Of a DNA stretch of 64,000 nucleotides, positions 1-64,000 are shown in pieces. How positions within the stretch are numbered: the stretch's first letter is position 1; each line of letters opens with the position of its first letter. The translations under genes were made by a program, and so were the position numbers. The DNA is from Loxodes magnus. Its lineage: Eukaryota; Ciliophora; Karyorelictea; Loxodida; Loxodidae. The notes under the pieces were generated by a model. It had not been told where the DNA came from and did not search any database. It saw only the letters and a program-made list of their open reading frames with translations. The stretch spans positions 395,673 to 459,672 of the forward strand of contig CAMPDV010000226.1 of NCBI GenBank assembly GCA_946699065.1, written 5' to 3'.

Positions 1-967
1 CACACTAGTTATGTATATGCCGTGGTTATATCCAGTGATTCAGAGTTCATCGTATCGGGAAGTTATGATTAGACGGTGAGACTATGGGACGTCAAGACAG
101 GTACCTGTAAGACCATGAGTGGTCACACTAGTTATGTATATGCTGTGGCTATATCCAGTGATTCAGAGTTCATCGTATCGGGAAGTTATGATTAAACGGT
201 GAGACTATGGGACGTCAAGACAGGTACCTGTAAGACCATGAGTGGTCACACTAGTTATGTATGATCTGTGGCTATATCCAGTGATTCAGAGTTCATCGTA
301 TCGGGAAGTAGAGATAATACGGTGAGACTATGGGACGTCAAGACAGGTACCTGTAAGACCATGAGTGGTCACACTAGTTATGTATGATCTGTGGCTATAT
401 CCAGTGATTCAGAGTTCATCGTATCGGGAAGTGCAGATAAGACGGTGAGACTATGGGACGTCAAGACAGGTACCTGTAAGACCATGAGTGGTCACACTAG
501 TTATGTATATGCTGTGGCTATATCCAGTGATTCAGAGTTCATCGTATCGGGAAGTTATGATTAGACGGTGAGACTATGGGACGTCAAGACAGGTACCTGT
601 AAGACCATGAGTGGTCACACTAGTTATGTATGATCTGAGGCTATATCCAGTGATTCAGAGTTCATCGTATCGGGAAGTGCAGATTAGACGGTGAGACTAT
701 GGGACGTCAAGACAGGTACCTGTAAGACCATGAGTGGTCACACTAGTTATGTATGATCTGAGGCTATATCCAGTGATTCAGAGTTCATCGTATCGGGAAG
801 TTATGATTAGACGGTGAGACTATGGGACGTCAAGACAGGTACCTGTAAGACCATGAGTGGTCACACTAGTTATGGATGATCTGAGGCTATATCCAGTGAT
901 TCAGAGTTCATCGTATCGGGAAGTTATGATTAGACGGTGAGACTATGGGACGTCAAGACAGGTACCT
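1..967 (+). pseudogene. WD40 frame segment 1, partial, ends at a -1 indel
   Basis: This is the leftmost eight or so units, in the phase set by the GTG at 76. It enters from outside the window and ends at 968-973, where one base is missing in the codons for T10-C11-K12, shifting the frame by -1. Under the standard code it is broken repeatedly: Y-D-TAG or Y-D-TAA at codon 40 in most units and TGA at codon 22 in several. Three units also carry GAG instead of GTG at codon 24, putting Glu in a strand that is hydrophobic in WD40 repeats, which looks more like decay than function. No initiator, N-terminal domain or promoter is visible. Confidence 0.5.
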
Positions 968-973
968 GAATAC
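968..973 (+). other. Single-base deletion (-1), copy 1 of 3
   Basis: The normal ACCTGTAAGACC is replaced by ACCTGAATACC, one base shorter. It changes the phase and creates a TGA directly at the lesion. Identical lesions lie at 13511-13519 and 15848-15854, each followed by a T-D-TGA/Y-D-Y unit and a T-D-TGA/G-D-K unit. Confidence 0.9.
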
Positions 974-3900
974 CATGAGTGGTCACACAGATTGAGTATA
1001 TGCTGTGGCTATATCCAGTGATTCAGAGTTCATCGTATCGGGAAGTTATGATTATACGGTGAGACTATGGGACGTCAAGACAGGTACCTGTAAGACCATG
1101 AGTGGTCACACAGATTGAGTATATGCTGTGGCTATATCCAGTGATTCAGAGTTCATCGTATCGGGAAGTGGAGATAAGACGGTGAGACTATGGGACGTCA
1201 AGACAGGTACCTGTAAGACCATGAGTGGTCACACTAGTTATGTATATGCTGTGGCTATATCCAGTGATTCAGAGTTCATCGTATCGGGAAGTTATGATTA
1301 GACGGTGAGACTATGGGACGTCAAGACAGGTACCTGTAAGACCATGAGTGGTCACACTAGTTATGTATGATCTGAGGCTATATCCAGTGATTCAGAGTTC
1401 ATCGTATCGGGAAGTTATGATTAGACGGTGAGACTATGGGACGTCAAGACAGGTACCTGTAAGACCATGAGTGGTCACACTAGTTATGTATGATCTGAGG
1501 CTATATCCAGTGATTCAGAGTTCATCGTATCGGGAAGTTATGATTATACGGTGAGACTATGGGACGTCAAGACAGGTACCTGTAAGACCATGAGTGGTCA
1601 CACTAGTTATGTATATGCCGTGGTTATATCCAGTGATTCAGAGCTCATCGTATCGGGAAGTTATGATTAGACGGTGAGACTATGGGACGTCAAGACAGGT
1701 ACCTGTAAGACCATGAGTGGTCACACTAGTTATGTATATGCTGTGGCTATATCCAGTGATTCAGAGTTCATCGTATCGGGAAGTGGAGATTAGACGGTGA
1801 GACTATGGGACGTCAAGACAGGTACCTGTAAGACCATGAGTGGTCACACATATTAGGTATGTGCTGTGGCTATATCCAGTGATTCAGAGTTCATCGTATC
1901 GGGAAGTTATGATTAGACGGTGAGACTATGGGACGTCAAGACAGGTACCTGTAAGACCATGAGTGGTCACACTAGTTATGTATATGCCGTGGTTATATCC
2001 AGTGATTCAGAGCTCATCGTATCGGGAAGTTATGATTAGACGGTGAGACTATGGGACGTCAAGACAGGTACCTGTAAGACCATGAGTGGTCACACTAGTT
2101 ATGTATATGCTGTGGCTATATCCAGTGATTCAGAGTTCATCGTATCGGGAAGTGGAGATTAGACGGTGAGACTATGGGACGTCAAGACAGGTACCTGTAA
2201 GACCATGAGTGGTCACACATATTAGGTATATGCTGTGGCTATATCCAGTGATTCAGAGTTCATCGTATCGGGAAGTGCAGATTATACGGTGAGACTATGG
2301 GACGTCAAGACAGGTACCTGTAAGACCATGAGTGGTCACACTAGTTATGTATATGCTGTGGCTATATCCAGTGATTCAGAGTTCATCGTATCGGGAAGTG
2401 CAGATAAGACGGTGAGACTATGGGACGTCAAGACAGGTACCTGTAAGACCATGAGTGGTCACACTAGTTATGTATATGCTGTGGCTATATCCAGTGATTC
2501 AGAGTTCATCGTATCGGGAAGTTATGATTAGACGGTGAGACTATGGGACGTCAAGACAGGTACCTGTAAGACCATGAGTGGTCACACTAGTTATGTATGA
2601 TCTGAGGCTATATCCAGTGATTCAGAGTTCATCGTATCGGGAAGTTATGATTAGACGGTGAGACTATGGGACGTCAAGACAGGTACCTGTAAGACCATGA
2701 GTGGTCACACTAGTTATGTATATGCTGTGGCTATATCCAGTGATTCAGAGTTCATCGTATCGGGAAGTTATGATTAGACGGTGAGACTATGGGACGTCAA
2801 GACAGGTACCTGTAAGACCATGAGTGGTCACACTAGTTATGTATATGCTGTGGCTATATCCAGTGATTCAGAGTTCATCGTATCGGGAAGTTATGATTAG
2901 ACGGTGAGACTATGGGACGTCAAGACAGGTACCTGTAAGACCATGAGTGGTCACACTAGTTATGTATGATCTGAGGCTATATCCAGTGATTCAGAGTTCA
3001 TCGTATCGGGAAGTTATGATTAGACGGTGAGACTATGGGACGTCAAGACAGGTACCTGTAAGACCATGAGTGGTCACACTAGTTATGTATATGCTGTGGC
3101 TATATCCAGTGATTCAGAGTTCATCGTATCGGGAAGTGCAGATTATACGGTGAGACTATGGGACGTCAAGACAGGTACCTGTAAGACCATGAGTGGTCAC
3201 ACTAGTTATGTATGATCTGTGGCTATATCCAGTGATTCAGAGTTCATCGTATCGGGAAGTTATGATTAGACGGTGAGACTATGGGACGTCAAGACAGGTA
3301 CCTGTAAGACCATGAGTGGTCACACTAGTTATGTATATGCTGTGGCTATATCCAGTGATTCAGAGTTCATCGTATCGGGAAGTTATGATTAGACGGTGAG
3401 ACTATGGGACGTCAAGACAGGTACCTGTAAGACCATGAGTGGTCACACTAGTTATGTATATGCTGTGGCTATATCCAGTGATTCAGAGTTCATCGTATCG
3501 GGAAGTGGAGATTAGACGGTGAGACTATGGGACGTCAAGACAGGTACCTGTAAGACCATGAGTGGTCACACTAGTTATGTATATGCTGTGGCTATATCCA
3601 GTGATTCAGAGTTCATCGTATCGGGAAGTTATGATTAGACGGTGAGACTATGGGACGTCAAGACAGGTACCTGTAAGACCATGAGTGGTCACACTAGTTA
3701 TGTATGATCGGAGGCTATATCCAGTGATTCAGAGTTCATCGTATCGGGAAGTTATGATTAGACGGTGAGACTATGGGACGTCAAGACAGGTACCTGTAAG
3801 ACCATGAGTGGTCACACTAGTTATGTATGATCTGAGGCTATATCCAGTGATTCAGAGTTCATCGTATCGGGAAGTTATGATTAGACGGTGAGACTATGGG

Positions 3901-6900
3901 ACGTCAAGACAGGTACCTGTAAGACCATGAGTGGTCACACTAGTTATGTATATGCTGTGGCTATATCCAGTGATTCAGAGTTCATCGTATCGGGAAGTGC
4001 AGATTATACGGTGAGACTATGGGACGTCAAGACAGGTACCTGTAAGACCATGAGTGGTCACACTAATTCTGTATATGCTGTGGCTATATCCAGTGATTCA
4101 GAGTTCATCGTATCGGGAAGTTATGATTAGACGGTGAGACTATGGGACGTCAAGACAGGTACCTGTAAGACCATGAGTGGTCACACTAGTTATGTATATG
4201 CTGTGGCTATATCCAGTGATTCAGAGTTCATCGTATCGGGAAGTTATGATTAAACGGTGAGACTATGGGACGTCAAGACAGGTACCTGTAAGACCATGAG
4301 TGGTCACACTAGTTATGTATGATCTGTGGCTATATCCAGTGATTCAGAGTTCATCGTATCGGGAAGTAGAGATAATACGGTGAGACTATGGGACGTCAAG
4401 ACAGGTACCTGTAAGACCATGAGTGGTCACACTAGTTATGTATATGCCGTGGTTATATCCAGTGATTCAGAGTTCATCGTATCGGGAAGTTATGATTAGA
4501 CGGTGAGACTATGGGACGTCAAGACAGGTACCTGTAAGACCATGAGTGGTCACACTAATTCTGTATTATCTGTGGCTATATCCAGTGATTCAGAGTTCAT
4601 CGTATCGGGAAGTTATGATTAAACGGTGAGACTATGGGACGTCAAGACAGGTACCTGTAAGACCATGAGTGGTCACACTAGTTATGTATATGCCGTGGTT
4701 ATATCCAGTGATTCAGAGTTCATCGTATCGGGAAGTTATGATTAGACGGTGAGACTATGGGACGTCAAGACAGGTACCTGTAAGACCATGAGTGGTCACA
4801 CTAGTTATGTATGATCTGTGGCTATATCCAGTGATTCAGAGTTCATCGTATCGGGAAGTTATGATTAGACGGTGAGACTATGGGACGTCAAGACAGGTAC
4901 CTGTAAGACCATGAGTGGTCACACTAGTTATGTATATGCTGTGGCTATATCCAGTGATTCAGAGTTCATCGTATCGGGAAGTTATGATTAGACGGTGAGA
5001 CTATGGGACGTCAAGACAGGTACCTGTAAGACCATGAGTGGTCACACTAGTTATGTATGATCTGAGGCTATATCCAGTGATTCAGAGTTCATCGTATCGG
5101 GAAGTTATGATTAGACGGTGAGACTATGGGACGTCAAGACAGGTACCTGTAAGACCATGAGTGGTCACACTAGTTATGTATGATCTGAGGCTATATCCAG
5201 TGATTCAGAGTTCATCGTATCGGGAAGTTATGATTAGACGGTGAGACTATGGGACGTCAAGACAGGTACCTGTAAGACCATGAGTGGTCACACTAGTTAT
5301 GTATGATCTGAGGCTATATCCAGTGATTCAGAGTTCATCGTATCGGGAAGTTATGATTAGACGGTGAGACTATGGGACGTCAAGACAGGTACCTGTAAGA
5401 CCATGAGTGGTCACACTAGTTATGTATATGCCGTGGTTATATCCAGTGATTCAGAGTTCATCGTATCGGGAAGTTATGATAATACAGTGAGACTATGGGA
5501 CGTCAAGACAGGTACCTGTAAGACCATGAGTGGTCACACTAGTTATGTATATGCCGTGGTTATATCCAGTGATTCAGAGTTCATCGTATCGGGAAGTTAT
5601 GATTAGACGGTGAGACTATGGGACGTCAAGACAGGTACCTGTAAGACCATGAGTGGTCACACTAGTTATGTATATGCTGTGGCTATATCCAGTGATTCAG
5701 AGTTCATCGTATCGGGAAGTTATGATTAAACGGTGAGACTATGGGACGTCAAGACAGGTACCTGTAAGACCATGAGTGGTCACACTAGTTATGTATGATC
5801 TGTGGCTATATCCAGTGATTCAGAGTTCATCGTATCGGGAAGTAGAGATAATACGGTGAGACTATGGGACGTCAAGACAGGTACCTGTAAGACCATGAGT
5901 GGTCACACTAGTTATGTATGATCTGTGGCTATATCCAGTGATTCAGAGTTCATCGTATCGGGAAGTGCAGATAAGACGGTGAGACTATGGGACGTCAAGA
6001 CAGGTACCTGTAAGACCATGAGTGGTCACACTAGTTATGTATATGCTGTGGCTATATCCAGTGATTCAGAGTTCATCGTATCGGGAAGTTATGATTAGAC
6101 GGTGAGACTATGGGACGTCAAGACAGGTACCTGTAAGACCATGAGTGGTCACACTAGTTATGTATGATCTGAGGCTATATCCAGTGATTCAGAGTTCATC
6201 GTATCGGGAAGTGCAGATTAGACGGTGAGACTATGGGACGTCAAGACAGGTACCTGTAAGACCATGAGTGGTCACACTAGTTATGTATGATCTGAGGCTA
6301 TATCCAGTGATTCAGAGTTCATCGTATCGGGAAGTTATGATTAGACGGTGAGACTATGGGACGTCAAGACAGGTACCTGTAAGACCATGAGTGGTCACAC
6401 TAGTTATGTATGATCTGAGGCTATATCCAGTGATTCAGAGTTCATCGTATCGGGAAGTGCAGATTAGACGGTGAGACTATGGGACGTCAAGACAGGTACC
6501 TGTAAGACCATGAGTGGTCACACTAATTCTGTATATGCTGTGGCTATATCCAGTGATTCAGAGTTCATCGTATCGGAAAGCGTAGATTATACGGTGAGAC
6601 TATGGGACGTCAAGACAGGTACCTGTAAGACCATGAGTGGTCACACAGATTGAGTATATGCTGTGGCTATATCCAGTGATTCAGAGTTCATCGTATCGGG
6701 AAGTGGAGATAAGACGGTGAGACTATGGGACGTCAAGACAGGTACCTGTAAGACCATGAGTGGTCACACAGATTGAGTATATGCTGTGGCTATATCCAGT
6801 GATTCAGAGTTCATCGTATCGGGAAGTCATGATAATACGGTGAGACTATGGGACGTCAAGACAGGTACCTGTAAGACCATGAGTGGTCACACAGATTGAG

Positions 6901-9900
6901 TATATGCTGTGGCTATATCCAGTGATTCAGAGTTCATCGTATCGGGAAGTGGAGATTATACGGTGAGACTATGGGACGTCAAGACAGGTACCTGTAAGAC
7001 CATGAGTGGTCACACTAGTTATGTATGATCTGTGGCTATATCCAGTGATTCAGAGTTCATCGTATCGGGAAGTAGAGATAATACGGTGAGACTATGGGAC
7101 GTCAAGACAGGTACCTGTAAGACCATGAGTGGTCACACAGATTGAGTATATGCTGTGGCTATATCCAGTGATTCAGAGTTCATCGTATCGGGAAGTGGAG
7201 ATAAGACGGTGAGACTATGGGACGTCAAGACAGGTACCTGTAAGACCATGAGTGGTCACACAGATTGAGTATATGCTGTGGCTATATCCAGTGATTCAGA
7301 GTTCATCGTATCGGGAAGTGTAGATTATACGGTGAGACTATGGGACGTCAAGACAGGTACCTGTAAGACCATGAGTGGTCACACTAATTCTGTATATGCT
7401 GTGGCTATATCCAGTGATTCAGAGTTCATCGTATCGGAAAGCGTAGATTATACGGTGAGACTATGGGACGTCAAGACAGGTACCTGTAAGACCATGAGTG
7501 GTCACACAGATTGAGTATATGCTGTGGCTATATCCAGTGATTCAGAGTTCATCGTATCGGGAAGTGGAGATAAGACGGTGAGACTATGGGAAGTCAAGAC
7601 AGGTACCTGTAAGACCATGAGTGGTCACACAGATTGAGTATATGCTGTGGCTATATCCAGTGATTCAGAGTTCATCGTATCGGGAAGTGGAGATAAGACG
7701 GTGAGACTATGGGAAGTCAAGACAGGTACCTGTAAGACCATGAGTGGTCACACAGATTGAGTATATGCTGTGGCTATATCCAGTGATTCAGAGTTCATCG
7801 TATCGGGAAGTGGAGATAAGACGGTGAGACTATGGGACGTCAAGACAGGTACCTGTAAGACCATGAGTGGTCACACAGATTGAGTATATGCTGTGGCTAT
7901 ATCCAGTGATTCAGAGTTCATCGTATCGGGAAGTGTAGATTATACGGTGAGACTATGGGACGTCAAGACAGGTACCTGTAAGACCATGAGTGGTCACACA
8001 GATTGAGTATATGCTGTGGCTATATCCAGTGATTCAGAGTTCATCGTATCGGGAAGTGTAGATTATACGGTGAGACTATGGGACGTCAAGACAGGTACCT
8101 GTAAGACCATGAGTGGTCACACTAATTCTGTATATGCTGTGGCTATATCCAGTGATTCAGAGTTCATCGTATCGGAAAGCGTAGATTATACGGTGAGACT
8201 ATGGGACGTCAAGACAGGTACCTGTAAGACCATGAGTGGTCACACAGATTGAGTATATGCTGTGGCTATATCCAGTGATTCAGAGTTCATCGTATCGGGA
8301 AGTGGAGATAAGACGGTGAGACTATGGGAAGTCAAGACAGGTACCTGTAAGACCATGAGTGGTCACACAGATTGAGTATATGCTGTGGCTATATCCAGTG
8401 ATTCAGAGTTCATCGTATCGGGAAGTGGAGATAAGACGGTGAGACTATGGGAAGTCAAGACAGGTACCTGTAAGACCATGAGTGGTCACACAGATTGAGT
8501 ATATGCTGTGGCTATATCCAGTGATTCAGAGTTCATCGTATCGGGAAGTCATGATAATACGGTGAGACTATGGGACGTCAAGACAGGTACCTGTAAGACC
8601 ATGAGTGGTCACACAGATTGAGTATATGCTGTGGCTATATCCAGTGATTCAGAGTTCATCGTATCGGGAAGTGTAGATTATACGGTGAGACTATGGGACG
8701 TCAAGACAGGTACCTGTAAGACCATGAGTGGTCACACAGATTGAGTATATGCTGTGGCTATATCCAGTGATTCAGAGTTCATCGTATCGGGAAGTGTAGA
8801 TTATACGGTGAGACTATGGGACGTCAAGACAGGTACCTGTAAGACCATGAGTGGTCACACTAATTCTGTATATGCTGTGGCTATATCCAGTGATTCAGAG
8901 TTCATCGTATCGGAAAGCGTAGATTATACGGTGAGACTATGGGACGTCAAGACAGGTACCTGTAAGACCATGAGTGGTCACACAGATTGAGTATATGCTG
9001 TGGCTATATCCAGTGATTCAGAGTTCATCGTATCGGGAAGTGGAGATAAGACGGTGAGACTATGGGACGTCAAGACAGGTACCTGTAAGACCATGAGTGG
9101 TCACACAGATTGAGTATATGCTGTGGCTATATCCAGTGATTCAGAGTTCATCGTATCGGGAAGTGGAGATAAGACGGTGAGACTATGGGAAGTCAAGACA
9201 GGTACCTGTAAGACCATGAGTGGTCACACAGATTGAGTATATGCTGTGGCTATATCCAGTGATTCAGAGTTCATCGTATCGGGAAGTAGAGATAAGACGG
9301 TGAGACTATGGGACGTCAAGACAGGTACCTGTAAGACCATGAGTGGTCACACAGATTGAGTATATGCTGTGGCTATATCCAGTGATTCAGAGTTCATCGT
9401 ATCGGGAAGTGGAGATAAGACGGTGAGACTATGGGAAGTCAAGACAGGTACCTGTAAGACCATGAGTGGTCACACAGATTGAGTATATGCTGTGGCTATA
9501 TCCAGTGATTCAGAGTTCATCGTATCGGGAAGTTATGATAATACGGTGAGACTATGGGACGTCAAGACAGGTACCTGTAAGACCATGAGTGGTCACACTA
9601 GTTATGTATGATCTGTGGCTATATCCAGTGATTCAGAGTTCATCGTATCGGGAAGTAGAGATAATACGGTGAGACTATGGGACGTCAAGACAGGTACCTG
9701 TAAGACCATGAGTGGTCACACAGATTGAGTATATGCTGTGGCTATATCCAGTGATTCAGAGTTCATCGTATCGGGAAGTAGAGATAAGACGGTGAGACTA
9801 TGGGAAGTCAAGACAGGTACCTGTAAGACCATGAGTGGTCACACAGATTGAGTATATGCTGTGGCTATATCCAGTGATTCAGAGTTCATCGTATCGGGAA

Positions 9901-12900
9901 GTGAAGATAAGACGGTGAGACTATGGGACGTCAAGACAGGTACCTGTAAGACCATGAGTGGTCACACAGATTGAGTATATGCTGTGGCTATATCCAGTGA
10001 TTCAGAGTTCATCGTATCGGGAAGTGGAGATAAGACGGTGAGACTATGGGAAGTCAAGACAGGTACCTGTAAGACCATGAGTGGTCACACAGATTGAGTA
10101 TATGCTGTGGCTATATCCAGTGATTCAGAGTTCATCGTATCGGGAAGTAGAGATAAGACGGTGAGACTATGGGACGTCAAGACAGGTACCTGTAAGACCA
10201 TGAGTGGTCACACAGATTGAGTATATGCTGTGGCTATATCCAGTGATTCAGAGTTCATCGTATCGGGAAGTGGAGATAAGACGGTGAGACTATGGGAAGT
10301 CAAGACAGGTACCTGTAAGACCATGAGTGGTCACACAGATTGAGTATATGCTGTGGCTATATCCAGTGATTCAGAGTTCATCGTATCGGGAAGTCATGAT
10401 AATACGGTGAGACTATGGGACGTCAAGACAGGTACCTGTAAGACCATGAGTGGTCACACAGATTGAGTATATGCTGTGGCTATATCCAGTGATTCAGAGT
10501 TCATCGTATCGGGAAGTGGAGATAAGACGGTGAGACTATGGGACGTCAAGACAGGTACCTGTAAGACCATGAGTGGTCACACTAATTCTGTATATGCTGT
10601 GGCTATATCCAGTGATTCAGAGTTCATCGTATCGGAAAGCGTAGATTATACGGTGAGACTATGGGACGTCAAGACAGGTACCTGTAAGACCATGAGTGGT
10701 CACACAGATTGAGTATATGCTGTGGCTATATCCAGTGATTCAGAGTTCATCGTATCGGGAAGTCATGATAATACGGTGAGACTATGGGACGTCAAGACAG
10801 GTACCTGTAAGACCATGAGTGGTCACACAGATTGAGTATATGCTGTGGCTATATCCAGTGATTCAGAGTTCATCGTATCGGGAAGTGGAGATAAGACGGT
10901 GAGACTATGGGAAGTCAAGACAGGTACCTGTAAGACCATGAGTGGTCACACAGATTGAGTATATGCTGTGGCTATATCCAGTGATTCAGAGTTCATCGTA
11001 TCGGGAAGTCATGATAATACGGTGAGACTATGGGACGTCAAGACAGGTACCTGTAAGACCATGAGTGGTCACACAGATTGAGTATATGCTGTGGCTATAT
11101 CCAGTGATTCAGAGTTCATCGTATCGGGAAGTGGAGATAAGACGGTGAGACTATGGGAAGTCAAGACAGGTACCTGTAAGACCATGAGTGGTCACACAGA
11201 TTGAGTATATGCTGTGGCTATATCCAGTGATTCAGAGTTCATCGTATCGGGAAGTGGAGATAAGACGGTGAGACTATGGGAAGTCAAGACAGGTACCTGT
11301 AAGACCATGAGTGGTCACACAGATTGAGTATATGCTGTGGCTATATCCAGTGATTCAGAGTTCATCGTATCGGGAAGTGGAGATAAGACGGTGAGACTAT
11401 GGGACGTCAAGACAGGTACCTGTAAGACCATGAGTGGTCACACAGATTGAGTATATGCTGTGGCTATATCCAGTGATTCAGAGTTCATCGTATCGGGAAG
11501 TGTAGATTATACGGTGAGACTATGGGACGTCAAGACAGGTACCTGTAAGACCATGAGTGGTCACACAGATTGAGTATATGCTGTGGCTATATCCAGTGAT
11601 TCAGAGTTCATCGTATCGGGAAGTGTAGATTATACGGTGAGACTATGGGACGTCAAGACAGGTACCTGTAAGACCATGAGTGGTCACACTAATTCTGTAT
11701 ATGCTGTGGCTATATCCAGTGATTCAGAGTTCATCGTATCGGAAAGCGTAGATTATACGGTGAGACTATGGGACGTCAAGACAGGTACCTGTAAGACCAT
11801 GAGTGGTCACACAGATTGAGTATATGCTGTGGCTATATCCAGTGATTCAGAGTTCATCGTATCGGGAAGTGGAGATAAGACGGTGAGACTATGGGAAGTC
11901 AAGACAGGTACCTGTAAGACCATGAGTGGTCACACAGATTGAGTATATGCTGTGGCTATATCCAGTGATTCAGAGTTCATCGTATCGGGAAGTGGAGATA
12001 AGACGGTGAGACTATGGGAAGTCAAGACAGGTACCTGTAAGACCATGAGTGGTCACACAGATTGAGTATATGCTGTGGCTATATCCAGTGATTCAGAGTT
12101 CATCGTATCGGGAAGTCATGATAATACGGTGAGACTATGGGACGTCAAGACAGGTACCTGTAAGACCATGAGTGGTCACACAGATTGAGTATATGCTGTG
12201 GCTATATCCAGTGATTCAGAGTTCATCGTATCGGGAAGTGTAGATTATACGGTGAGACTATGGGACGTCAAGACAGGTACCTGTAAGACCATGAGTGGTC
12301 ACACAGATTGAGTATATGCTGTGGCTATATCCAGTGATTCAGAGTTCATCGTATCGGGAAGTGTAGATTATACGGTGAGACTATGGGACGTCAAGACAGG
12401 TACCTGTAAGACCATGAGTGGTCACACTAATTCTGTATATGCTGTGGCTATATCCAGTGATTCAGAGTTCATCGTATCGGAAAGCGTAGATTATACGGTG
12501 AGACTATGGGACGTCAAGACAGGTACCTGTAAGACCATGAGTGGTCACACAGATTGAGTATATGCTGTGGCTATATCCAGTGATTCAGAGTTCATCGTAT
12601 CGGGAAGTGGAGATAAGACGGTGAGACTATGGGACGTCAAGACAGGTACCTGTAAGACCATGAGTGGTCACACAGATTGAGTATATGCTGTGGCTATATC
12701 CAGTGATTCAGAGTTCATCGTATCGGGAAGTGGAGATAAGACGGTGAGACTATGGGAAGTCAAGACAGGTACCTGTAAGACCATGAGTGGTCACACAGAT
12801 TGAGTATATGCTGTGGCTATATCCAGTGATTCAGAGTTCATCGTATCGGGAAGTAGAGATAAGACGGTGAGACTATGGGACGTCAAGACAGGTACCTGTA

Positions 12901-13511
12901 AGACCATGAGTGGTCACACAGATTGAGTATATGCTGTGGCTATATCCAGTGATTCAGAGTTCATCGTATCGGGAAGTGGAGATAAGACGGTGAGACTATG
13001 GGAAGTCAAGACAGGTACCTGTAAGACCATGAGTGGTCACACAGATTGAGTATATGCTGTGGCTATATCCAGTGATTCAGAGTTCATCGTATCGGGAAGT
13101 TATGATAATACGGTGAGACTATGGGACGTCAAGACAGGTACCTGTAAGACCATGAGTGGTCACACTAGTTATGTATGATCTGTGGCTATATCCAGTGATT
13201 CAGAGTTCATCGTATCGGGAAGTAGAGATAATACGGTGAGACTATGGGACGTCAAGACAGGTACCTGTAAGACCATGAGTGGTCACACAGATTGAGTATA
13301 TGCTGTGGCTATATCCAGTGATTCAGAGTTCATCGTATCGGGAAGTGGAGATAAGACGGTGAGACTATGGGACGTCAAGACAGGTACCTGTAAGACCATG
13401 AGTGGTCACACAGATTGAGTATATGCTGTGGCTATATCCAGTGATTCAGAGTTCATCGTATCGGGAAGTGGAGATAAGACGGTGAGACTATGGGACGTCA
13501 AGACAGGTACC
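974..13511 (+). CDS. WD40 frame segment 2 (12.5 kb), open only with stop reassignment
   Basis: About 102 units share one reading phase with no indel. The reading is interrupted only by stops at codon 20 (T-D-TGA, mainly after 6640), codon 22 (Y-V-TGA-S) and codon 40 (D-TAG or D-TAA, mainly before 6480). With UGA as Trp, codon 20 gives D-W-V and codon 22 gives V-W-S-V, both common WD40 sequences. With UAR as Gln, codon 40 gives D-Q-T, also common. Under the standard code nothing longer than about 98 residues is open, less than three blades. From 1 to 6480 the units are the S-Y-V/Y-D-stop type; after that they become T-D-TGA units with G-D-K, V-D-Y and H-D-N, and D5 is often Glu. The segment ends at the same -1 indel that began it. 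I call it CDS only as a hypothesis; a decayed array is the alternative. Confidence 0.4.
1599..2217 (+). repeat. Three-unit (369-bp) tandem duplication with a GAGCTC marker
   Basis: Units carrying GAGCTC (E31-L32 instead of E31-F32) occur at 1641 and 2010, exactly 369 bp apart, each followed by a G-D-TAG unit and then a unit with T-Y-TAG at codon 20. The GAGCTC variant is otherwise found only at 45919, so it is a good tracer for exchange within the array. Confidence 0.85.
7257..9470 (+). repeat. Six-unit (738-bp) higher-order repeat, three copies
   Basis: Copies begin at 7257, 7995 and 8733. Each opens with T-D-TGA/V-D-Y, then N-S-V with E-S-V-D-Y (G36E), then two G-D-K units usually with W-E-V-K (D5E), then a variable unit (G-D-K, H-D-N or R-D-K). 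The pair V-D-Y plus E-S-V-D-Y recurs at 11583 and 12321 (again 738 bp apart), 13796, 14903, 17362 and 21790, so the module was reused across the 7-22 kb zone. Confidence 0.8.
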
Positions 13512-13517
13512 TGAATA

Positions 13518-15847
13518 CCATGAGTGGTCACACAGATTGAGTATATGCTGTGGCTATATCCAGTGATTCAGAGTTCATCGTATCGGGAAGTTATGATTAT
13601 ACGGTGAGACTATGGGACGTCAAGACAGGTACCTGTAAGACCATGAGTGGTCACACAGATTGAGTATATGCTGTGGCTATATCCAGTGATTCAGAGTTCA
13701 TCGTATCGGGAAGTGGAGATAAGACGGTGAGACTATGGGACGTCAAGACAGGTACCTGTAAGACCATGAGTGGTCACACAGATTGAGTATATGCTGTGGC
13801 TATATCCAGTGATTCAGAGTTCATCGTATCGGGAAGTGTAGATTATACGGTGAGACTATGGGACGTCAAGACAGGTACCTGTAAGACCATGAGTGGTCAC
13901 ACTAATTCTGTATATGCTGTGGCTATATCCAGTGATTCAGAGTTCATCGTATCGGAAAGCGTAGATTATACGGTGAGACTATGGGACGTCAAGACAGGTA
14001 CCTGTAAGACCATGAGTGGTCACACAGATTGAGTATATGCTGTGGCTATATCCAGTGATTCAGAGTTCATCGTATCGGGAAGTGGAGATAAGACGGTGAG
14101 ACTATGGGACGTCAAGACAGGTACCTGTAAGACCATGAGTGGTCACACAGATTGAGTATATGCTGTGGCTATATCCAGTGATTCAGAGTTCATCGTATCG
14201 GGAAGTGAAGATAAGACGGTGAGACTATGGGACGTCAAGACAGGTACCTGTAAGACCATGAGTGGTCACACTAGTTATGTATATGCTGTGGCTATATCCA
14301 GTGATTCAGAGTTCATCGTATCGGGAAGTCATGATAATACGGTGAGACTATGGGACGTCAAGACAGGTACCTGTAAGACCATGAGTGGTCACACTAGTTA
14401 TGTATGATCTGTGGCTATATCCAGTGATTCAGAGTTCATCGTATCGGGAAGTAGAGATAATACGGTGAGACTATGGGACGTCAAGACAGGTACCTGTAAG
14501 ACCATGAGTGGTCACACAGATTGAGTATATGCTGTGGCTATATCCAGTGATTCAGAGTTCATCGTATCGGGAAGTGGAGATAAGACGGTGAGACTATGGG
14601 AAGTCAAGACAGGTACCTGTAAGACCATGAGTGGTCACACAGATTGAGTATATGCTGTGGCTATATCCAGTGATTCAGAGTTCATCGTATCGGGAAGTCA
14701 TGATAATACGGTGAGACTATGGGACGTCAAGACAGGTACCTGTAAGACCATGAGTGGTCACACAGATTGAGTATATGCTGTGGCTATATCCAGTGATTCA
14801 GAGTTCATCGTATCGGGAAGTGTAGATTATACGGTGAGACTATGGGACGTCAAGACAGGTACCTGTAAGACCATGAGTGGTCACACAGATTGAGTATATG
14901 CTGTGGCTATATCCAGTGATTCAGAGTTCATCGTATCGGGAAGTGTAGATTATACGGTGAGACTATGGGACGTCAAGACAGGTACCTGTAAGACCATGAG
15001 TGGTCACACTAATTCTGTATATGCTGTGGCTATATCCAGTGATTCAGAGTTCATCGTATCGGAAAGCGTAGATTATACGGTGAGACTATGGGACGTCAAG
15101 ACAGGTACCTGTAAGACCATGAGTGGTCACACAGATTGAGTATATGCTGTGGCTATATCCAGTGATTCAGAGTTCATCGTATCGGGAAGTCATGATAATA
15201 CGGTGAGACTATGGGACGTCAAGACAGGTACCTGTAAGACCATGAGTGGTCACACAGATTGAGTATATGCTGTGGCTATATCCAGTGATTCAGAGTTCAT
15301 CGTATCGGGAAGTGGAGATAAGACGGTGAGACTATGGGAAGTCAAGACAGGTACCTGTAAGACCATGAGTGGTCACACTAGTTATGTATATGCTGTGGCT
15401 ATATCCAGTGATTCAGAGTTCATCGTATCGGGAAGTCATGATAATACGGTGAGACTATGGGACGTCAAGACAGGTACCTGTAAGACCATGAGTGGTCACA
15501 CTAGTTATGTATGATCTGTGGCTATATCCAGTGATTCAGAGTTCATCGTATCGGGAAGTAGAGATAATACGGTGAGACTATGGGACGTCAAGACAGGTAC
15601 CTGTAAGACCATGAGTGGTCACACAGATTGAGTATATGCTGTGGCTATATCCAGTGATTCAGAGTTCATCGTATCGGGAAGTGGAGATAAGACGGTGAGA
15701 CTATGGGACGTCAAGACAGGTACCTGTAAGACCATGAGTGGTCACACAGATTGAGTATATGCTGTGGCTATATCCAGTGATTCAGAGTTCATCGTATCGG
15801 GAAGTGGAGATAAGACGGTGAGACTATGGGACGTCAAGACAGGTACC
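13518..15847 (+). CDS. WD40 frame segment 3 (2.3 kb), between two identical -1 indels
   Basis: Nineteen units lie between two copies of the same single-base deletion (13511-13519 and 15848-15854), exactly 2337 bp or 19 units apart. The phase is shifted by one relative to the preceding segment. Internal stops occur only as TGA at codons 20 and 22. The two longest standard-code stretches are 80 residues (14165-14407 and 15272-15514), each two blades of the E-D-K or G-D-K then H-D-N type. The identical flanking lesions show that the segment boundary arose by copying an already mutated module, not by two independent mutations. Confidence 0.35.
13796..15514 (+). repeat. Nine-unit (1107-bp) higher-order repeat
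   Basis: The V-D-Y/E-S-V-D-Y pair at 13796 returns at 14903, and the E-D-K/H-D-N pair at 14165 returns as G-D-K/H-D-N at 15272, both 1107 bp apart. The second copy differs by W-E-V-K and by the residue at codon 38. The repeat lies between the two -1 indels of this zone. Confidence 0.7.
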
Positions 15848-15854
15848 TGAATAC

Positions 15855-50300
<34,446 letters not shown>

Positions 50301-52665
50301 GGTCACACTAATTCTGTATTATCTGTGGCTATATCCAGTGATTCAGAGTTCATCGTATCGGGAAGTGTAGATTATACGGTGAGACTATGGGACGTCAAGA
50401 CAGGTACCTGTAAGACCATGAGTGGTCACACTAGTTATGTATATGCTGTGGCTATATCCAGTGATTCAGAGTTCATCGTATCGGGAAGTCATGATAATAC
50501 GGTGAGACTATGGAACGTCAAGACAGGTACCTGTAAGACCATGAGTGGTCACACTAATTCTGTATATGTTGTGGCTATATCCAGTGATTCAGAGTTCATC
50601 GTATCGGGAAGTAGAGATAAGACGGTGAGACTATGGGACGTCAAGACAGGTACCTGTAAGACCATGAGTGGTCACACTAATTCTGTATTATCTGTGGCTA
50701 TATCCAGTGATTCAGAGTTCATCGTATCGGGAAGTAGAGATAATACGGTGAGACTATGTGACGTCAAGACAGGTACCTGTAAGACCATGAGTGGTCACAC
50801 AGATTGAGTATATGCTGTGGCTATATCCAGTGATTCAGAGTTCATCGTATCGGGAAGTCATGATAATACGGTGAGGACTATGGGACGTCAAGACAGGTAC
50901 CTGTAAGACCATGAGTGGTCACACAGATTGAGTATATGCTGTGGCTATATCCAGTGATTCAGAGTTCATCGTATCGGGAAGTAGAGATAATACGGTGAGA
51001 CTATGGGACGTCAAGACAGGTACCTGTAAGACCATGAGTGGTCACACTAATTCTGTATTATCTGTGGCTATATCCAGTGATTCAGAGTTCATCGTATCGG
51101 GAAGTGTAGATTATACGGTGAGACTATGTGACGTCAAGACAGGTACCTGTAAGACCATGAGTGGTCACACAGATTGAGTATATGCTGTGGCTATATCCAG
51201 TGATTCAGAGTTCATCGTATCGGGAAGTCATGATAATACGGTGAGACTATGGGACGTCAAGACAGGTACCTGTAAGACCATGAGTGGTCACACAGATTGA
51301 GTATATGCTGTGGCTATATCCAGTGATTCAGAGTTCATCGTATCGGGAAGTAGAGATAATACGGTGAGACTATGGGACGTCAAGACAGGTACCTGTAAGA
51401 CCATGAGTGGTCACACTAGTTATGTATGTGCTGTAGCTATATCCAGTGATTCAGAGTTCATCGTATCGGGAAGTGTAGATTATACGGTGAGACTATGGGA
51501 CGTCAAGACAGGTACCTGTAAGACCATGAGTGGTCACACTAATTCTGTATTATCTGTGGCTATATCCAGTGATTCAGAGTTCATCGTATCGGGAAGTCAT
51601 GATAATACGGTGAGACTATGGGACGTCAAGACAGGTACCTGTAAGACCATGAGTGGTCACACTAGTTATGTATGATCTGTGGCTATATCCAGTGATTCAG
51701 AGTTCATCGTATCGGTAAGTCATGATTAAACGGTGAGACTATGGGACGTCAAGACAGGTACCTGTAAGACCATGAGTGGTCACACTAGTTATGTATGTGC
51801 TGTAGCTATATCCAGTGATTCAGAGTTCATCGTATCGGGAAGTGTAGATTATACGGTGAGACTATGGGACGTCAAGACAGGTACCTGTAAGACCATGAGT
51901 GGTCACACAGATTGAGTATATGCTGTGGCTATATCCAGTGATTCAGAGTTCATCGTATCGGGAAGTCATGATAATACGGTGAGACTATGGGACGTCAAGA
52001 CAGGTACCTGTAAGACCATGAGTGGTCACACTAGTTATGTATGTGCTGTAGCTATATCCAGTGATTCAGAGTTCATCGTATCGGGAAGTTATGATAATAC
52101 GGTGAGACTATGGGACGTCAAGACAGGTACCTGTAAGACCATGAGTGGTCACACAGATTGAGTATATGCTGTGGCTATATCCAGTGATTCAGAGTTCATC
52201 GTATCGGGAAGTTATGATAATACGGTGAGACCTATGGGACGTCAAGACAGGTACCTGTAAGACCATGAGTGGTCACACTAGTTATGTATGATCTGTGGCT
52301 ATATCCAGTGATTCAGAGTTCATCGTATCGGGAAGTAGAGATAATACGGTGAGACTATGGGACGTCAAGACAGGTACCTGTAAGACCATGAGTGGTCACG
52401 CTAATTCTGTATTATCTGTGGCTATATCCAGTGATTCAGAGGTCATCGTATCGGGAAGTGTAGATAATACGGTGAGACTATGGGACGTCAAGACAGGTAC
52501 CTGTAAGACCATGAGTGGTCACACTAGTTATGTATGCGCTGTAGCTATATCCAGTGATTCAGAGTTCATCGTATCGGGAAGTAGAGATAATACGGTGAGG
52601 ACTATGGGACGTCAAGACAGGTACCTGTAAGACCATGAGTGGTCCACACAGATTGAGTATATGCT

Positions 52666-61400
<8,735 letters not shown>

Positions 61401-62622
61401 ATCCAGTGATTCAGAGTTCATCGTATCGGGAAGTAGAGATAATACGGTGAGACTATGGGACGTCAAGACAGGTACCTGTAAGACCATGAGTGGTCACGTT
61501 AATTCCGTATTATCTGTGGCTATATCCAGTGATTCAGAGTTCATCGTATCGGGAAGTTTAGATAATACGGTGAGACTATGGGACGTCAAGACAGGTACCT
61601 GTAAGACCATGAGTGGTCACACTAGTTATGTATGATCTGTGGCTATATCCAGTGATTCAGAGTTCATCGTATCGGGAAGTAGAGATAATACGGTGAGACT
61701 ATGGGAAGTCAAGACAGGTACCTGTAAGACCATGAGTGGTCACACAGATTGAGTATATGCTGTGGCTATATCCAGTGATTCAGAGTTCATCGTATCGGGA
61801 AGTGTAGATTATACGGTGAGACTATGGGACGTCAAGACAGGTACCTGTAAGACCATGAGTGGTCACACAGATTGAGTATATGCTGTGGCTATATCCAGTG
61901 ATTCAGAGTTCATCGTATCGGGAAGTCATGATAATACGGTGAGACTATGGGACGTCAAGACAGGTACCTGTAAGACCATGAGTGGTCACACTAGTTATGT
62001 ATGTGCTGTAGCTATATCCAGTGATTCAGAGTTCATCGTATCGGGAAGTTATGATAATACGGTGAGACTATGGGACGTCAAGACAGGTACCTGTAAGACC
62101 ATGAGTGGTCACACAGATTGAGTATATGCTGTGGCTATATCCAGTGATTCAGAGTTCATCGTATCGGGAAGTTATGATAATACGGTGAGACTATGGGACG
62201 TCAAGACAGGTACCTGTAAGACCATGAGTGGTCACACTAGTTATGTATGATCTGTGGCTATATCCAGTGATTCAGAGTTCATCGTATCGGGAAGTAGAGA
62301 TAATACGGTGAGACTATGGGACGTCAAGACAGGTACCTGTAAGACCATGAGTGGTCACGCTAATTCTGTATTATCTGTGGCTATATCCAGTGATTCAGAG
62401 TTCATCGTATCGGGAAGTGTAGATAATACGGTGAGACTATGGGACGTCAAGACAGGTACCTGTAAGACCATGAGTGGTCACACTAGTTATGTATGCGCTG
62501 TAGCTATATCCAGTGATTCAGAGTTCATCGTATCGGGAAGTAGAGATAATACGGTGAGACTATGGGACGTCAAGACAGGTACCTGTAAGACCATGAGTGG
62601 TCACACAGATTGAGTATATGCT

Positions 62623-63228
62623 GTGGCTATATCCAGTGATTCAGAGTTCATCGTATCGGGAAGTAGAGATAATACGGTGAGACTATGGGACGTCAAGACA
62701 GGTACCTGTAAGACCATGAGTGGTCACACTAGTTATGTATATGCTGTGGCTATATCCAGTGATTCAGAGTTCATCGTATCGGGAAGTAGAGATAATACGG
62801 TGAGACTATGGGACGTCAAGACAGGTACCTGTAAGACCATGAGTGGTCACGTTAATTCCGTATTATCTGTGGCTATATCCAGTGATTCAGAGTTCATCGT
62901 ATCGGGAAGTAGAGATTATACGGTGAGACTATGGGACGTCAAGACAGGTACCTGTAAGACCATGAGTGGTCACACAGGTTCTGTATATGCTGTGGCTATA
63001 TCCAGTGATTCAGAGTTCATCGTATCGGGAAGTAGAGATAATACGGTGAGACTATGGGACGTCAAGACAGGTACCTGTAAGACCATGAGTGGTCACACTA
63101 GTTATGTATGTGCTGTAGCTATATCCAGTGATTCAGAGTTCATCGTATCGGGAAGTGTAGATTATACGGTGAGACTATGGGACGTCAAGACAGGTACCTG
63201 TAAGACCATGAGTGGTCACACAGATTGA
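62623..63228 (+). CDS. Five-blade WD40 open stretch, 201 aa (standard code)
   Basis: Stop-free run of five units with triplets R-D-N, R-D-N, R-D-Y, R-D-N and V-D-Y, followed by T-D-TGA, after which another 160-residue run (63238-63720) continues in the same phase. The local phase is intact from about 61330 to 63850, making this the best-preserved part of the distal zone. R-D-Y at 38-40 (62906-62920) is a combination not seen on the left side of the array, consistent with recent reassortment of codons 38 and 40. Confidence 0.2.
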   Translation: MAISSDSEFIVSGSRDNTVRLWDVKTGTCKTMSGHTSYVYAVAISSDSEFIVSGSRDNTVRLWDVKTGTCKTMSGHVNSVLSVAISSDSEFIVSGSRDYTVRLWDVKTGTCKTMSGHTGSVYAVAISSDSEFIVSGSRDNTVRLWDVKTGTCKTMSGHTSYVCAVAISSDSEFIVSGSVDYTVRLWDVKTGTCKTMSGHTD

Positions 63229-64000
63229 GTATATGCTGTGGCTATATCCAGTGATTCAGAGTTCATCGTATCGGGAAGTTATGATAATACGGTGAGACTA
63301 TGGGACGTCAAGACAGGTACCTGTAAGACCATGAGTGGTCACGCTAATTCTGTATTATCTGTGGCTATATCCAGTGATTCAGAGTTCATCGTATCGGGAA
63401 GTGTCGATAATACGGTGAGACTATGGGACGTCAAGACAGGTACCTGTAAGACCATGAGTGGTCACACAGGTTCTGTATATGCTGTGGCTATATCCAGTGA
63501 TTCAGAGTTCATCGTATCGGGAAGTAGAGATTATACGGTGAGACTATGGGACGTCAAGACAGGTACCTGTAAGACCATGAGTGGTCACACTAGTTATGTA
63601 TGTGCTGTAGCTATATCCAGTGATTCAGAGTTCATCGTATCGGGAAGTTTAGATAATACGGTGAGACTATGGGACGTCAAGACAGGTACCTGTAAGACCA
63701 TGAGTGGTCACACAGATTGAGTATATGCTGTGGCTATATCCAGTGATTCAGAGTTCATCGTATCGGGAAGTTTAGATAATACGGTGAGACTATGGGACGT
63801 CAAGACAGGTACCTGTAAGACCATGAGTGGTCACACTAGTTATGTATTATCTGTGGGCTATATCCAGTGATTCAGAGTTCATCGTATCGGGAAGTAGAGA
63901 TAATACGGTGAGACTATGGGACGTCAAGACAGGTACCTGTAAGACCATGAGTGGTCACACTAGTTATGTATGTGCTGTAGCTATATCCAGTGATTCAGAG

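Follow-up and report, generated by a model that had tools for sequence, protein, structure and literature searches.

A 64-kb tandem array of WD40 repeats with standard stop codons at variable positions that commonly carry tryptophan or glutamine

Results

Extent and growth of the array

The window, the whole stretch of 64,000 nucleotides analysed here, is filled from end to end by a single tandem array with a period of 123 bp and 520.4 copies (TRF, positions 1-64000). The initial annotation had placed the array between positions 974 and 50300; it actually runs through the whole window in about 520 copies. The features considered below are as follows.

1..64000, plus strand: continuous tandem array (TRF), about 520 copies of a 123-bp unit, each corresponding to one 41-residue WD40 blade; no flank in the window
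965..974, plus strand: unit variant with a 1-bp deletion (122 bp) that breaks the frame and has TGA at codon 37; further copies at 13510 and 15846
974..13515, plus strand: in-frame stretch of 4,180 codons; 106 standard stops, 0 if TGA is read as W and TAR as Q
13520..15851, plus strand: in-frame stretch of 777 codons; 16 standard stops, 0 under the same reading
15857..50297, plus strand: longest one-frame stretch, 11,479 codons without a length change; 206 standard stops, 0 under the same reading
30253..31113, plus strand: seven sampled units that carry TGA (codons 5 and 7) and TAG (codons 25 and 16); translated with table 27, predicted to form a seven-bladed propeller (mean pLDDT 94.6)
31630..32355, plus strand: stop-free ORF of 242 codons, in the top three by length among standard-code ORFs that have a start codon; its presence does not indicate a gene
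50170..64000, plus strand: end part of the array with frequent length changes of 1-2 bp; 17 irregular intervals

The unit is exactly 123 bp (41 codons) long in 497 of the 517 delimited intervals. All codon counts refer to these 497 full-length units, with the 20 irregular intervals left out; codon 1 is GGT, and our codon number is that of the initial annotation minus 15 within the 41-codon unit. There are 134 distinct sequences among the 497 units, and the GC content of the array is 44%. WD40 proteins are recognised by blades of about 40 residues with GH and WD motifs and by a beta-propeller fold. Here the units have 41 codons, Pfam PF00400 matches six stretches (2.7e-67 on the stop-free stretch 31630-32355), and the structural model agrees. 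Other frames and the minus strand were rejected as coding, the longest open stretch on the minus strand being 63 codons.

Positions 974-50300 had been taken as a single frame, which is in fact broken by the 1-bp-deletion units at 13510 and 15846 (the third copy lies at 965). Irregular intervals are concentrated towards the end of the window, with 17 of the 20 in the last 13.8 kb versus 3 in the first 50.2 kb, and substitutions are not raised there. This irregularity between 50170 and 64000 is as expected from either lower consensus quality at an unpolished contig end or decay. Several units in the same part have an identical inserted G in GTGAGGACTATGGG.

Exact block repeats comprise 18 units (at lag 18 from position 29761 and at lag 29 from 7500) and 9 units (at 22996), and four surface codons occur in 73 combinations among the 497 units. 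Together with the small number of differences outside the surface codons, these observations point to growth of the array by unequal exchange from few founders. In being long and homogenised, in its duplicated blocks and in its lack of strong coding constraint, the array also agrees with satellite DNA.

Several further patterns were seen along the array. Between 28000 and 34000 the 18-unit block lies in tandem (lag 18), and units with TAG at codon 16 recur about every 2,214 bp. The 497 units contain 73 TAG/TAA codons, of which 40 lie within positions 1-8000, 38 of those at codon 25, while TGA dominates later, an unevenness that indicates zones of different founder mixes. Codons 3-5 and 7-8 are mostly linked as few haplotypes: ACA GAT TGA with TAT GCT is found in 223 of the 497 units, ACT AGT TAT with TGA TCT in 57, and ACT AAT TCT with TTA TCT in 46. 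Exchange thus seems to break seldom within codons 3-8.

Positions and frequencies of the stop codons

At least one standard stop is present in 337 of the 497 units, and 303 of the 376 stops are TGA. TGA occupies codon 5 in 235 units and codon 7 in 68; TAG occupies codon 25 in 49, codon 16 in 10 and codon 5 in 5; and TAA is found at codon 25 in 9. No other codon of the 497 units contains a stop. The earlier claim that stops are confined to these four positions (codons 20, 22, 31 and 40 in the numbering of the initial annotation) therefore stands for full-length units. It fails for the three 122-bp units, in which codon 37, previously described as always sense (as codon 11), is TGA, in frame before the deletion. 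As had also been noted, TGG is absent at codons 5 and 7 and CAA/CAG at codon 25 (previously 20, 22 and 40) in all 497 units. The conserved W30 is TGG in 492 of the 497 units and TGA in none, and TGA at codon 5 and TGA at codon 7 never occur together in one unit.

The initial annotation had pointed out that near-stop codons at other positions remain sense. We give this no weight. Of the 306 single changes that are possible at the remaining 34 codons, once the seven variable ones are set aside, only 11 create a stop. Among the 33 distinct changes seen, chance would give 1.4 stops, and 1 is found. The scarcity of stops at other codons is at chance level.

A different picture is obtained from common alleles. 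Three stop alleles are present in at least 5% of units (TGA at codon 5, 47%; TGA at codon 7, 14%; TAG at codon 25, 9.9%), all in variable codons, versus a single minor allele at this level in the 34 other codons (GAA at codon 31, 29 of 497 units, 5.8%) and none at 10% or more. Thus, the stops are part of the common variation at surface codons; they do not fall in the rare class outside it. Units with TGA at codon 5 or 7 or with TAR at codon 25 have the same backbone consensus as stop-free units; the ten units with TAG at codon 16 differ from this consensus, with codon 16 itself counted as backbone. There are 0.39 backbone changes per unit in the 337 units with a stop at codon 5, 7 or 25 versus 0.57 in the other 160, so the backbone is not more altered where a stop is present.

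Two simple causes for the stops were considered. That they are real gene ends was rejected: the lengths of stop-free runs match those in shuffled order (the longest run among the 497 listed units is 5 units, P 0.68). For repeat-induced point mutation (RIP), the indices are 0.92 (TpA/ApT) and 0.94 ((CpA+TpG)/(ApC+GpT)), values that have little meaning on copies of one 123-bp unit. By the usual cut-offs they would even lean to RIP. The process favours amber and ochre stops (PMC1805685), whereas 303 of the 376 stops are TGA, and RIP is therefore unlikely as their main cause.

Variable codons

Codon entropy exceeds 0.5 bit at codons 3, 4, 5, 7, 8, 23 and 25 only, and the most variable sites are codons 5, 7, 23 and 25 together with codon 4. 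The pairs 5/7 and 23/25 flank the conserved residues V6 (493 of 497 units) and D24 (497 of 497). In the WD40 repeats of Podospora NLR genes, codons 7, 9, 25 and 27 are reported to be under positive selection and to map to the face of the propeller that binds (PMC1805685, PMC2873952). There too the variation is concentrated in two pairs of codons, each flanking a conserved residue, and the pairs are spaced as in the array. Given this shared spacing, the variation at codons 5/7 and 23/25 was most likely shaped on the protein.

Residues carried by the stop columns in unrelated WD40 repeats

A reference panel was drawn from 19 unrelated bacterial loci (13 genome loci and 6 of the 20 plasmid matches listed). 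Its 243 repeats were aligned with a model carrying X at every stop, and 133 near-full repeats were kept. Best-segment identity of the 13 genome loci to the array is at most 49%. Tryptophan is the commonest residue in column 5 (48 of 133 repeats) and in column 7 (34 of 133). Glutamine is commonest in column 25 (30 of 133) and second in column 16 (34 of 133, behind lysine with 39 of 133). The panel bears out the earlier statements that Trp is common at the first two positions and Gln, among other residues, at the latter two (codons 20 and 22, and 40 and 31, in the previous numbering). Variability in the array and in the panel is correlated (rho 0.42, P 0.006).

When the three main stop columns are placed at random over all columns, 18 of 33,620 placements fit as well as the observed one. 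Among codons 4, 5, 7, 23 and 25 this is 1 of 50. Among the seven variable columns it is 1 of 147, and with column 16 added 1 of 784, each being the smallest value that its test can yield; with TAG at column 5 included as well it is 2 of 1,568. Using all 243 repeats leaves the values of 1/147 and 1/784 unchanged, and in 300 locus bootstraps both the median and the 95th percentile give these values too.

The panel also bears on the missing combination of TGA at codons 5 and 7. Mutual exclusion of two tryptophans was rejected as its cause, as 13 of 133 panel repeats have both and W5 and W7 are independent (P 0.84). The absence of such units is at best a matter of linkage.

Reading of the stop codons

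When all 20 residues are given equal prior weight and the panel frequencies are used, the posterior for UGA from two independent columns (5 and 7) of this one locus is 0.67 for W and 0.19 for R. For UAR, judged from two to three columns (posterior from columns 25 and 16), it is 0.48 for Q, 0.21 for K, 0.10 for R and 0.02 for E. Reading UGA as Trp and UAR as Gln at the time when the repertoire formed is the best-supported interpretation, and the panel favours it, modestly as far as the identity of the residues is concerned. Of the assignments proposed in the initial annotation, Trp and Gln are retained and the alternative Glu is disfavoured. The location of the stops at Trp/Gln columns of homologues is as expected under codes in which all stops are sense (tables 27/28 type), again with modest strength for the residues themselves.

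Read through in this way, the seven-unit sample at 30253..31113 is predicted as a propeller whose top fold matches are 5YZV, 7BIE and 2YMU (best TM >0.9 for the predicted model); 2YMU is also the best PDB match by sequence. A similar fold is probably to be expected from any well-formed WD40 repeats. The proposal that recoding restores canonical blades accords with this prediction and with the backbone shared by units with and without stops; as a statement about present translation it finds no support.

Constraint on the array

The 33 distinct single changes outside the variable codons comprise 22 nonsynonymous changes, 10 synonymous changes and 1 stop, versus a neutral expectation of 23.4, 8.1 and 1.4. 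Omega for these rare variants is about 0.76 (95% interval 0.35-1.8), and neither by panel frequency (P 0.28) nor by BLOSUM62 (P 0.69) are the nonsynonymous changes milder than random ones. Some variants expected to break the blade have been copied: L replaces H2 in 16 units, E replaces V9 in 14 and G21 in 18, and C replaces W30 in 5. Purifying selection was not detected in this set of 33 changes, and the array in this respect lacks what is expected of genes with in-frame stops under codes with all stops sense. The rare variants look neutral, as in an array that is not a living gene or is not strongly constrained.

UGA accounts for 303 of 20,377 codons (1.49%), more than ten times the 0.042-0.120% reported for three ciliates reading UGA as Trp (PMC4967479). 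Together with the neutral-looking recent variants, the frame break present in triplicate, and a W30 codon that is never TGA, this leaves present-day translation of the stops unsupported.

Searches for relatives

A 35-base core of the array has no exact match in viral or genome contigs, and a second core of 36 bases has none in viral contigs. Array peptide patterns matched no viral contig, and positions 16000-19000 gave no DNA match in phages or plasmids. In each of 339 plasmid records the best place is below 60% protein identity. With the queries used, a near relative of the array was not found in viral, bacterial, phage or plasmid collections, which makes a eukaryotic source likely by exclusion. 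The window contains no tRNA genes and no Rfam families. Among the literature matches listed, such a WD40 array is not reported in the titles and the beginnings of the abstracts.

Discussion

Origin of the array

The stop positions are real and meaningful, and the explanation to which we give slightly better than even chances is that a WD40 gene of the recognition type, in a protist without dedicated stop codons, gave rise to a satellite-like array. The array, the places of its stops, their match to Trp/Gln columns, the duplicated blocks and the near-neutral rare variation are results; what code the host used, the role in recognition and the sequence of events we infer as follows. The source would be the WD40 sensor part of a self/non-self-recognition type of gene, in a eukaryote that may have read UGA as Trp and UAA/UAG as Gln (a code of the kind found in karyorelicts, Condylostoma or Amoebophrya). 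The stops would first have been ordinary sense alleles at surface codons 5, 7 and 25 during diversification. A few founder blades may then have expanded to about 520 copies via unequal exchange and block duplication, with surface alleles being shuffled on a near-constant backbone. Most or all of the array would now be without strong protein-level constraint and would behave as a satellite. Had the array simply decayed, many common changes would be expected in the backbone, which speaks for the stops as former sense alleles. On the other hand, Trp and Gln codons are one transition away from stops, so decay would place stops at these columns too, although changes that create a stop are a small share of all changes. 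Further points against this explanation are the rare variants, which show no purifying selection, the high use of UGA, a W30 codon that is never TGA, the absence of units with TGA at both codon 5 and codon 7, and a GC content unlike that of Loxodes magnus coding sequence or of Amoebophrya ex K. veneficum. We suggest that the stops were sense codons at the time of diversification; the same pattern could result from gene conversion if a dead array had a variable hot spot.

The main rival is a non-coding satellite under the standard code, in which some surface Trp and Gln codons of a dead WD40 recognition gene turned into stops and its repeats subsequently underwent amplification and homogenisation. 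This account, which we rate as a substantial possibility short of an even chance, is favoured by the neutral-looking rare variants and their omega interval, by nonsynonymous changes that are no more conservative than random, by the copied changes at H2, G21 and W30, and by the frameshift unit in three copies. There are also precedents: a survey of repetitive propellers describes some that are disrupted by frameshifts and in-frame stops (PMC9218822), and a Podospora het-d sequence (strain Wa87+) is reported with two stops within one repeat (PMC12222747). Its cost is that it requires three common stops to arise at variable columns that usually carry Trp or Gln, with just one other change reaching at least 5% in 34 codons.

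The array may instead be a living gene for a giant protein, translated from about 15857 with the three stops as sense codons into a chain exceeding 11,000 residues or into serial propellers. The single frame of 11,479 codons without a length change, from which UGA as Trp and UAR as Gln remove all 206 stops, and the confident prediction for the seven-blade sample (pLDDT 94.6) fit this scenario. We consider it improbable: purifying selection is not detected, the interval leaves out the omega values below about 0.35 that would mean strong constraint, and the frame is broken just upstream at 13510 and 15846. Equally improbable in our judgement is the related case of a hypervariable recognition locus in a protist without dedicated stops, with at least about 520 blades read over more than 11,000 codons and former stops serving as surface Trp and Gln; if it were true, a change of code would be feeding receptor diversity.

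A silent archive of blades, whose surface alleles would be copied into an expressed gene elsewhere while stops are tolerated in the untranslated copies, would suit the many surface combinations (73 in 497 units) and the repeat exchange between active loci and pseudogenes proposed in Podospora (PMC1805685), but we regard it as very improbable, as the window shows no expressed copy and, with one codon being a stop in 47% of the units, stops would frequently be copied into the gene under the standard code.

Should the code reading hold, the array would far exceed in length every other WD40 run in the literature consulted, where the survey gives 47 similar blades (PMC9218822). Reassigned stops would have been used as alleles at sites of diversifying selection, with the identity of the residue readable from the family. 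If the array is a dead satellite instead, stop positions in a repeat family can retain a memory of surface selection, and the locus is a warning against calling a genetic code from a single repetitive locus.

Comparison with known systems

The best-fitting code, UGA as Trp and UAR as Gln, is shared with the ciliates Condylostoma magnum and Parduczia sp. (PMC4967479) and Loxodes (PMC11441545), and with Amoebophrya ex K. veneficum (PMC6394959, PMC12005148). Nuclear codes in which all stops are sense differ from the array in that UGA is reported to be far rarer there. Base composition also differs: Amoebophrya ex K. veneficum has 65.2% AT (PMC12005148) and Loxodes magnus a coding GC content of 33.5% (PMC11441545), compared with 44% GC in the array. 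Tandem repeats, annotated from 1 kb up, are described as making up 359 of 848 Mb of the MIC assembly and 231 of 706 Mb of the MAC assembly of L. magnus, an organism with UGA as Trp and UAR as Gln (PMC11441545), and these two features make it a candidate source despite its lower coding GC; the word WD40 has no occurrence in the searched text of that source. The Blastocrithidia code (UGA as Trp, UAR as Glu; PMC12153298) shares the reading of UGA, and under it TAG in place of GAG at codon 16 would leave the residue unchanged. This code fits worse, Gln being favoured over Glu about twentyfold at array columns 25 and 16.

In the pattern of variation, the closest likeness is to the Podospora het-d, het-e and het-r genes of the NWD family, which likewise consist of near-identical WD40 units and in which new combinations arise by shuffling, as in the array (PMC1805685, PMC2873952, PMC12222747). 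The variation at two surface codon pairs with conserved flanks is common to both, whereas an open frame under the standard code is not, with 337 of 497 units containing a stop. In the Podospora sources, stops are noted in broken alleles and pseudogenes. Functional het-d and het-e alleles are described with about 10-11 repeats, compared with about 520 units here. Fungal NLR proteins of this kind also have a NACHT or NB-ARC domain and an effector domain upstream of the repeats; no NACHT or HET domain lies in the window, which the array fills.

Highly repetitive beta-propellers (WRAP, 2YMU; survey PMC9218822) resemble the array in having near-identical blades amplified from one blade. As many as 47 similar consecutive blades are given in that survey, whereas the array has about 520, with stops at surface codons. 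It is this size, and the use of stops as surface alleles, that are new here.
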